Shown here one piece after another: positions 16,396 to 18,459 of a stretch of 47,646 nt of DNA. Under the pieces are notes generated by a model. That model was not told where the DNA came from, ran no database searches, and saw nothing but the letters and a program-made list of their open reading frames with translations. Made by a program: the position numbers and the translations under genes. The first letter of the stretch is position 1. Every line of letters starts with the position of its first letter. The DNA lies in NCBI GenBank assembly GCA_002280515.1, contig NCEA01000015.1, forward strand, positions 4,313 to 51,958, in the 5' to 3' direction. Source of the DNA: Rhodobacterales bacterium 32-67-9 (GTDB taxonomy: Bacteria; Pseudomonadota; Alphaproteobacteria; Rhodobacterales; Rhodobacteraceae).

Positions 16396-18459
16396 GTGCC
16401 AGCCGAGGCCACATCGCCATCGGAAGACGACCAGCTCTTCCGCCTGCTTCGTCAGCTTGACCAGCGGCCGGATGCCTCGCAGCGCGCCACGGCCCAGGCG
16501 CTTGGCATCAGCCTCGGCACCCTCAACGCCCATCTGCGCGCCGCCACCGACGCCGGCCATATCCGCATCGCCGACCGCAAGGGGCCCGACCGCCGCCAGC
16601 GCTTCACCTATGAGCTGACGACGAAGGGCGCCGCCACCAAGGCCCGCCTGACCGACCGGTTCCTCGCCCGCAAACTTGCCGAATACGACGCTCTTCACGC
16701 CGAACTGACCGGCACGAAAAGCGGCCTTCTCCATCTCGATAAAAGGACCCCCCTGATGCAATCGAACCTCTCCCCGATCCCGGAGCTTTACGTCTCCTAC
16801 GACAGCGCCCAGAAGCTGAAACATGAGGCCGGCGCGCTGCCGTCCTGGGATCTGACCCCGCGCCAGATCTGCGATCTGGAGCTTCTGATGAACGGCGGCT
16901 TCCACCCGTTGAAGGGCTTCCTGACCGAGGCCGACTATGACGGCGTGGTCGAGAACATGCGGCTGGAAAGCGGCGCGCTCTGGCCGATGCCGGTGACGCT
17001 CGACGTCTCGGAGGCCTTCGCCGAAAAGGTGGAGCCCGGCCAGGACATCGCACTGCGCGACCAGGAAGGCGTGATCCTTGCCATCCTCTCGGTCACCGAC
17101 AAGTGGGAACCGAACAAGTCGCGCGAGGCCGAAGGCGTGTTCGGTGCCGACGATCTCGCCCATCCGGCAGTCAACTACCTGCACAACCAGGCCGGCAAGA
17201 TCTATCTCGGCGGCCCGGTCACCGGCATCCAGCAGCCGGTCCACTACGACTTCAAGGCCCGGCGCGACACGCCGAACGAACTGCGCGCCCATTTCCGCAA
17301 GCTCGGCTGGCGCAAGATCGTCGCCTTCCAGACCCGCAATCCCCTGCACCGCGCGCATCAGGAACTGACCTTCCGCGCCGCAAGGGAAGCGCAGGCCAAC
17401 CTCCTGATCCACCCGGTCGTCGGCATGACCAAGCCGGGCGATGTCGATCACTTCACCCGGGTGCGCTGCTATGAGGCGGTGCTGGACCAGTATCCGGCCT
17501 CCACCACGCATCTGTCGCTGCTGAACCTAGCGATGCGGATGGGCGGCCCGCGCGAGGCGCTTTGGCACGCGATCATCCGCCGCAACCACGGCCTCACGCA
17601 TTTCATCGTCGGCCGCGACCATGCCGGCCCCGGCAAGAACAGCCAGGGCAAGGATTTCTACGATCCCTATGCCGCGCAGGACCTGGTGCGTCAGCATCAG
17701 AAGGAAATCGGCATCGAGATGGTCGACTTCAAACAGATGGTCTACGTGCAGGAAAAGGCCCAGTATTTCCCGGTGGACGAAGTGCCGGAAGGTTCTACCG
17801 TCCTCGACATCTCGGGCACCGAACTGCGCCGCCGTCTGCGCGAAGGGCTGGAGATCCCGGAATGGTTCTCCTTCCCCGAAGTGGTGCAGGAACTGCGCCG
17901 CACCTCGCCGCCGCGCGCCAAACAGGGCTTCACGGTGTTCTTCACCGGCCTTTCCGGTTCGGGCAAGTCGACCATCGCCAACGCCCTCATGGTCAAGCTG
18001 ATGGAGATGGGCGGCCGCCCGACGACGCTTCTCGATGGTGACGTGGTGCGCAAGCATCTCTCGTCCGAGCTCGGCTTCTCGAAAGAGCATCGCGACATCA
18101 ACATCAAGCGCATCGGCTATGTCGCCTCCGAGATCACCAAGAACGGCGGCATCGCGATCTGCGCGCCGATCGCGCCCTATACCTCGACCCGCCGCGCCGT
18201 GCGCGAGATGGTCGAAGCCTACGGCGCCTTCGTCGAGGTCCATGTCGCGACCAGCATCGAGGAATGTGAACGGCGCGACCGCAAGGGGCTCTACAAGCTT
18301 GCCCGCGAAGGCAAGATCAAGGAGTTCACCGGGATCTCGGACCCCTACGAGGAGCCGCAGAACCCCGAACTCAAGGTCGAGACCGAGAATGTCGACGTCG
18401 ACAACTGCGCCCATCAGGTGATCCTGAAGCTGGAATCGATGGGCCTTATCAAGGCCTGA
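16396..18459 (+). CDS. MarR-like HTH in one frame with ATP sulfurylase/APS kinase
   Basis: One open frame of 687 codons from a GTG. Residues 1-115 form a winged helix of the EPS-associated MarR type (ATAQALGISLGTLNAHLRAA, then YELTTKGAATKARLTDRFL). Codon 121 is an ATG at 16756 that starts a complete 567-residue bifunctional enzyme: ATP sulfurylase with QTRNPLHRAHQE and GRDHAGPG, then APS kinase with the P-loop GLSGSGKST. The enzyme makes APS and then PAPS from sulfate and ATP, for assimilation or sulfation. An AAAAGGA site eight bases before 16756 shows that the enzyme can be made alone, as in related genomes where I know it at that size. So either a true fusion, or two products from one frame. 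A palindromic operator precedes it and a terminator follows. Confidence 0.88.
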   Translation: MPAEATSPSEDDQLFRLLRQLDQRPDASQRATAQALGISLGTLNAHLRAATDAGHIRIADRKGPDRRQRFTYELTTKGAATKARLTDRFLARKLAEYDALHAELTGTKSGLLHLDKRTPLMQSNLSPIPELYVSYDSAQKLKHEAGALPSWDLTPRQICDLELLMNGGFHPLKGFLTEADYDGVVENMRLESGALWPMPVTLDVSEAFAEKVEPGQDIALRDQEGVILAILSVTDKWEPNKSREAEGVFGADDLAHPAVNYLHNQAGKIYLGGPVTGIQQPVHYDFKARRDTPNELRAHFRKLGWRKIVAFQTRNPLHRAHQELTFRAAREAQANLLIHPVVGMTKPGDVDHFTRVRCYEAVLDQYPASTTHLSLLNLAMRMGGPREALWHAIIRRNHGLTHFIVGRDHAGPGKNSQGKDFYDPYAAQDLVRQHQKEIGIEMVDFKQMVYVQEKAQYFPVDEVPEGSTVLDISGTELRRRLREGLEIPEWFSFPEVVQELRRTSPPRAKQGFTVFFTGLSGSGKSTIANALMVKLMEMGGRPTTLLDGDVVRKHLSSELGFSKEHRDINIKRIGYVASEITKNGGIAICAPIAPYTSTRRAVREMVEAYGAFVEVHVATSIEECERRDRKGLYKLAREGKIKEFTGISDPYEEPQNPELKVETENVDVDNCAHQVILKLESMGLIKA
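16741..16758 (+). promoter_or_regulatory. Internal ribosome-binding site and ATG for the enzyme-only product
   Basis: AAAAGGA at 16741-16747 stands eight bases before the in-frame ATG at 16756, the start of the normal-length ATP sulfurylase/APS kinase. It is a much better initiation signal than the one at the upstream GTG, which has almost no leader, and so decides that the shorter protein is probably the main product. Confidence 0.7.

Follow-up and report, generated by a model that had tools for sequence, protein, structure and literature searches.

The locus considered here raises the question of whether an enzyme can carry the regulator of its own gene as a part of its own polypeptide, and whether one reading frame can deliver that enzyme both with and without the regulatory part. 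In the window, which is the whole stretch of 47,646 nucleotides that was analysed, positions 16396-18459 of the forward strand form a single uninterrupted frame of 687 amino acids, in which a winged helix of the MarR_EPS type is followed by a complete ATP sulfurylase/APS kinase. The frame begins with GTG, which is the first possible start since an in-frame TGA stands upstream at 16372, and its product, referred to below as the long form (16396..18459, forward strand), has a calculated mass of 76.9 kDa. The host genome, which is 93.6% complete and has Defluviimonas species among its nearest named relatives, holds a single copy of the gene. The neighbouring frames, which we take to be thioredoxin reductase-like and cytochrome b561-like, do not resemble exopolysaccharide genes, and no Rfam element was found around the gene at gathering score.

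The winged-helix head is placed by profile matches and predicted structure at residues 10-105 (16423..16710, forward strand). It matches TIGR04176 (MarR_EPS) at 91.0 bits when searched alone and at 86.2 bits within the whole protein, the cut-off being 88, and the same residues also match Pfam HTH_24. When modelled alone with AlphaFold2 (111 amino acids, mean pLDDT 87.8), the head is composed of predicted helices, a beta wing and a single long last helix. The five top Foldseek matches of this model are chains of the MarR-family protein HcaR (E from 7e-5, TM 0.56-0.62, rmsd over 10), and Sso10a-2 is also among the matches. As modelled, the head is a winged helix-turn-helix of the MarR fold, with structural match scores that are modest. 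The usual MarR dimer is formed by extra helices; the full-length model of the fused protein is poor (pLDDT 61) and is silent on the pairing of the heads.

The enzyme part, residues 120-686, matches NF004040 (bifunctional sulfate adenylyltransferase/adenylylsulfate kinase) with a score of 1056 bits against a cut-off of 669, and the match spans positions 5-571 of the 572 in the model. The motif QTRNPLHRAH (17329..17358, forward strand), which we take to be the catalytic motif of ATP sulfurylase, and the motif GRDHAGPG are invariant across 28 aligned sequences, while GLSGSGKS (17947..17970, forward strand), presumably the P-loop of the APS kinase, is invariant in the same sequences at all residues except the second. 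The catalytic motifs are thus intact and activity is predicted. The enzyme part is of full length and homologous to 2gks and 3cr8, which we take to be the bifunctional ATP sulfurylase/APS kinases of Aquifex and Thiobacillus, respectively, and to 1i2d, which we take to be the ATP sulfurylase of Penicillium, the best match among solved structures being 1i2d at 692 bits; these proteins differ from the fused one in lacking a DNA-binding head, as none of their matches starts before residue 140. An open frame leading from a MarR-like head into this enzyme is what the original prediction had described, and the absence of a stop and the profile matches bear it out; the linker, which had been put at about seven residues, comes to about 15 when it is measured from the end of the last predicted head helix (residue 105) to the internal Met121.

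The distribution of the fusion was determined with a profile of the head only, which is blind to downstream sequence, in 394 Rhodobacteraceae genomes, and all family counts given here come from this survey. The head occurs at 159.5 bits or more in 90 of the genomes, from 89 genera, and it lies in a frame of at least 690 amino acids in 88 of them, the frames of the other two (G425 and G076) reaching a contig end. A survey of separate versus fused frames had been proposed together with the original prediction, a stop between the two parts being named as the contrary outcome; no such stop was found in the relatives, and the head is fused in 88 of the 88 uncut frames of the family. The merging of two genes by a sequencing error was also considered and is ruled out, because these 88 frames are long in independent genomes. 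The next-best match to the head profile scores 113.3 bits, and matches of this kind sit in separate small frames of the 394 genomes; in a sample of the class comprising 385 genomes, the head was found in a long frame in only two, both Rhodobacteraceae, all other matches lying in frames of at most 343 amino acids. Proteins of TIGR04176 are presumably, to judge from the family name, stand-alone proteins encoded beside exopolysaccharide genes, and proteins similar to the head do occur as small stand-alone frames in the Rhodobacteraceae and in the class, whereas the head considered here is fused in the 88 genomes with uncut frames. On this comparison of sequences, the fusion is an arrangement kept in related marine bacteria. 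One record titled Nocardioides marinus (L220) carries a head of the Rhodobacteraceae type and is perhaps mislabelled or mixed.

Many genomes lack the head, members of the genus among them, so that it is dispensable: 22 genomes of the genus include seven in which the gene is fully fused, one in which it runs off a contig end, 12 in which the enzyme is headless and two that are too fragmentary. A tree of 118 enzyme sequences, whose root is not fixed, requires at least six changes of head state on supported branches and has 15 on the best tree, and repeated loss of the head is its simplest reading. Plasmid records from Roseobacter, Sulfitobacter, Paracoccus and others (H1-H10) match the enzyme only from residue 108-124 and are seemingly headless. 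Where the head is present, its dN/dS between the window gene and six relatives is 0.12-0.27, which indicates that it is translated and under purifying selection; an enzyme-part value for one relative (L007, 0.615) was left out because it looks inflated by unaligned indels. Since no stop follows the head, it would be made only as a part of the enzyme, unless it is cleaved later.

The second question, whether the frame also yields the enzyme without its head, turns on a start signal inside the frame. The strong internal ribosome-binding site and ATG that had been claimed are present as the Shine-Dalgarno sequence AAAAGGA (16741..16747, forward strand), which lies within the coding frame with its AGG as the codon of Arg117, and as the ATG of Met121 at 16756, from which a short form of 567 amino acids, an ATP sulfurylase/APS kinase with a calculated mass of 63.7 kDa, would be read (16756..18459, forward strand). 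The conservation of this signal was measured in a first sample of 93 fused genes (the window gene and 92 loci, from 87 genera), which were chosen as long fused-frame matches, so that the finding that all 93 are open from head into enzyme is partly due to the choice of sample. AGGA precedes the internal start in 90 of the 93, the exceptions being L044 (CGGA), L101 (AGGT) and L112, in which it is shifted because both the AGG and the ATG stand one codon earlier. In 91 of the 93 genes, the arginine located 12 bases 5' of the internal start is encoded by AGG, while AGG makes up 0.9% of the 5005 other arginine codons in the same genes, and this codon is the most biased of the whole frame (7.06 versus 2.04 for the runner-up). 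The start codon itself is ATG in 87 genes, GTG in four and TTG in one, besides the displaced ATG of L112. A stretch resembling a Shine-Dalgarno sequence is found before this start in 91 of the 93 genes, compared to 180 of the 3103 other in-frame ATG or GTG codons of these genes. In a second sample of 83 loci selected by the head alone (the best 80 of 329 relatives and three cut genes, 27 loci being in both samples), the Shine-Dalgarno sequence and the start are present in 82, the exception being L165, with CGG instead of AGG; 77 of the frames continue as long frames and six meet a contig end. The start of the long form is of a different kind, since the GTG of the window gene has no Shine-Dalgarno sequence, and neither have the long starts of 88 of the 93 genes, as picked by a script.

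No proteomic or transcription-start data on any fused gene were found in the open-licence literature, and in the available text of the R. pomeroyi proteogenomics study PMC3305630 the string "adenylyl" occurs only in the reference list. A Roseobacter litoralis enzyme is listed at 64.39 kDa in the available text of PMC4103551; this mass is uninformative about the short form, the plasmid copies of R. litoralis matching only from residue 124.

Upstream of the frame lies a candidate operator, the 16-bp palindrome CGTTCAGCTCTGAACA (16362..16377, without strand), which has one mismatch to TGTTCA-N4-TGAACA and stands 18 bp before the GTG. One of the 93 genes has too little upstream sequence, and in the 92 that are testable the pattern occurs upstream of the head with at most one mismatch in 90 and with at most two in all 92. 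It was not found at up to one mismatch in any of 1840 mononucleotide-shuffled regions, nor at up to two mismatches in the 800 bases upstream (773 in one case) of 25 headless genes, which were those fetched and not a random draw. It is also present at each of the 83 second-sample loci, and head and palindrome agree in six independent contrasts on supported branches of the tree (sign test, p = 0.03). When 20 hand-picked fused genomes were searched in full, the palindrome was found at the enzyme gene in all 20 and nowhere else in 14, occurring twice at that gene in G413, and a reversed control pattern gave four matches in three of the 20. The window genome has it once, at the enzyme gene. Five of the 20 genomes (G417, G416, G247, G360 and G422) have further palindromes away from the enzyme gene, which are possible further targets.

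The palindrome is flanked by conserved blocks in the column profile of the 92 genes: a possible -35-like element, TGAAAT (16355..16360, forward strand), in a conserved stretch that adjoins it on the 5' side, and a possible -10-like element, TATATA (16378..16383, forward strand), which adjoins it on the 3' side, both assignments being weak. A scan of the window with the sigma-70 consensus found no promoter at the palindrome, so that its place within a promoter rests on conservation. A CTTT block precedes both promoter-like elements at 16334-16337, which is -28 to -25 from the palindrome, with each position 73-92% conserved in the 92 genes. Another palindrome, 26-49 bp farther upstream, is found in 18 of the 92 genes (L011, L039, L050, L063, L069, L071, L079, L080, L083, L086, L091, L093, L096, L098, L105, L108, L112 and L114), at spacings near 26-34 or 46-49 bp and with the left half TGTTCT in ten of the 18.

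The reading that we consider likely is that the gene encodes a trigger enzyme which mainly controls itself and is expressed as two products from one mRNA. The long form would start at a GTG or ATG that has no Shine-Dalgarno sequence and probably lies only a few bases from the 5' end of the mRNA, and it would be made at a low rate and carry the winged-helix head. The short form, started by the strong internal Shine-Dalgarno sequence and ATG, would be the plain enzyme and form the bulk of the supply; we infer from these signals both the existence of the two products and the ratio between them. Heads paired through the enzyme oligomer, which would contain both forms, would occupy the palindrome, which lies within the presumed core promoter, and prevent the gene from being transcribed, and the enzyme would in this way gauge how much of itself is present, probably along with APS or PAPS as its substrate or product, and adjust its own supply. 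What the comparison of relatives shows is that the two parts are fused, that the head is under selection, that the signal for the internal start is conserved, and that among the genes compared a palindrome is present wherever the head is and missing where it is not; the original proposal of a long DNA-binding form and a short enzyme with feedback on their own transcription is to that extent well founded. Its suggested tie to sulfated polysaccharide is unsupported, as the palindrome of the window genome is found only at the enzyme gene.

Two alternative readings concern the products. It is improbable, in our judgement, that only the long form is made and that the AGGA-ATG is either a by-product of the protein sequence or a site at which the ribosome pauses, so helping the two domains to fold. 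At the protein level Arg117 never varies and Met121 hardly does among the 28 aligned sequences, and stretches resembling a Shine-Dalgarno sequence can slow ribosomes, both of which accord with such a reading; against it, AGG is the arginine codon in 91 of 93 genes where its usual share is 0.9%, several neighbouring residues of the linker are variable, the spacing between Shine-Dalgarno sequence and start is conserved, and where the ATG is lost it becomes another start codon (GTG in four genes, TTG in one) or shifts by one codon (one gene). The converse, that the short form alone has a function, the head being a leftover that is barely translated, is hardly credible: it agrees with the want of a Shine-Dalgarno sequence at 88 of 93 long starts and with the absence of the head from 12 of the 22 genomes of the genus, but a leftover would not be expected to show a dN/dS of 0.12-0.27, to remain open in 88 of 88 uncut frames or to co-occur strictly with a palindrome.

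The remaining alternatives concern what the head does. It might bind the palindrome and yet activate the gene, or alter the geometry of its promoter, when sulfur is short. Some activators use a site placed like a spacer between the promoter blocks, and by this analogy the position of the palindrome between two conserved blocks would suit activation, as would the second upstream site in 18 of the 92 genes; the other 74 lack such a site, however, and sites located within a core promoter are as a rule sites of repression, so that activation appears unlikely. There is only a slim chance that the palindrome is bound by some other regulator while the head acts elsewhere, for example at polysaccharide genes. 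Relatives of the MarR_EPS type that stand alone take their name from EPS loci and five of the 20 searched genomes have palindromes elsewhere, which would fit this account, but the palindrome accompanies 92 of 92 fused genes versus none of 25 headless ones, and the single palindrome of the window genome is at the enzyme gene.

If self-repression by the fused enzyme is taken as the preferred reading, the signal to which it responds has to be considered. Fungal ATP sulfurylase is a hexamer in which a kinase-like domain senses PAPS, and by its relation to 1i2d, the fungal hexamer with this PAPS-sensing domain, APS or PAPS is the leading candidate for the effector. The CysH of the host (L221, 1366-2226, reverse strand) has the CC and CxxC cysteine pairs that are typical of APS reductases and that we take to be their signature, and since it resembles an APS reductase, PAPS may be unneeded for cysteine. 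This CysH frame stands in a run with frames that are presumably sulfite reductase-like and ferredoxin reductase-like. No account of the control of sulfate activation in these marine Rhodobacteraceae was found in the open-licence literature. A more specific form of the preferred reading, to which we would give somewhat less than an even chance, is that scarce DNA-binding forms and abundant headless forms co-assemble, and that the complex, filled with APS or PAPS or empty, reads the sulfate-activating capacity at a single dedicated operator, with the two starts tuning the number of heads per complex and through it the strength of the feedback.

Comparison with known self-regulating enzymes shows which features are shared and which appear to be new. 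PutA has a DNA-binding fold and an enzyme that are different from those of the fused gene, and we know of no conserved internal start that gives a headless PutA. NadR, the NMN adenylyltransferase/ribosylnicotinamide kinase repressor, combines a helix-turn-helix, a nucleotidyltransferase and a P-loop kinase, domain types which stand in an order matching that of the fused protein; to our knowledge it is not known to make two products. The term trigger enzyme denotes an enzyme that also works as a DNA-binding transcription factor, and the available text of PMC8249747 describes E. coli PutA as a single-target trigger enzyme that represses its own gene, listing BirA, NadR, PepA and PyrH alongside it, while that of PMC5343134 gives nadR among the targets of NadR in some enterobacteria. 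The claim that no described enzyme regulates its own gene in this way is therefore too broad. Like PutA, the E. coli proline dehydrogenase, the fused gene joins a metabolic enzyme and a DNA-binding domain in one protein, here as judged by sequence; it differs in that PutA, according to the available text of PMC8249747, also covers putP, and from NadR in that the latter controls several NAD genes (available text of PMC5343134) and is not an ATP sulfurylase.

Self-regulating enzymes such as PutA are thus already known, and the features that appear to be new are the type of enzyme, an operator dedicated to this gene and an internal start, conserved among relatives, from which the enzyme would also be made without its head; no account of the fusion, of such an operator or of the two-start design was found in open-licence papers. 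The first enzyme of sulfate activation seems in these bacteria to be its own dedicated repressor, and the rare arginine codon, kept in all but two of 93 genes that represent 87 genera, looks like the mark of one gene that makes a regulator and an enzyme in a set proportion. The headless relatives, which are also without the operator, provide natural controls. If the proposal is true, two starts in a single frame would set the number of heads per complex, and hence the strength with which the enzyme feeds back on its own supply.
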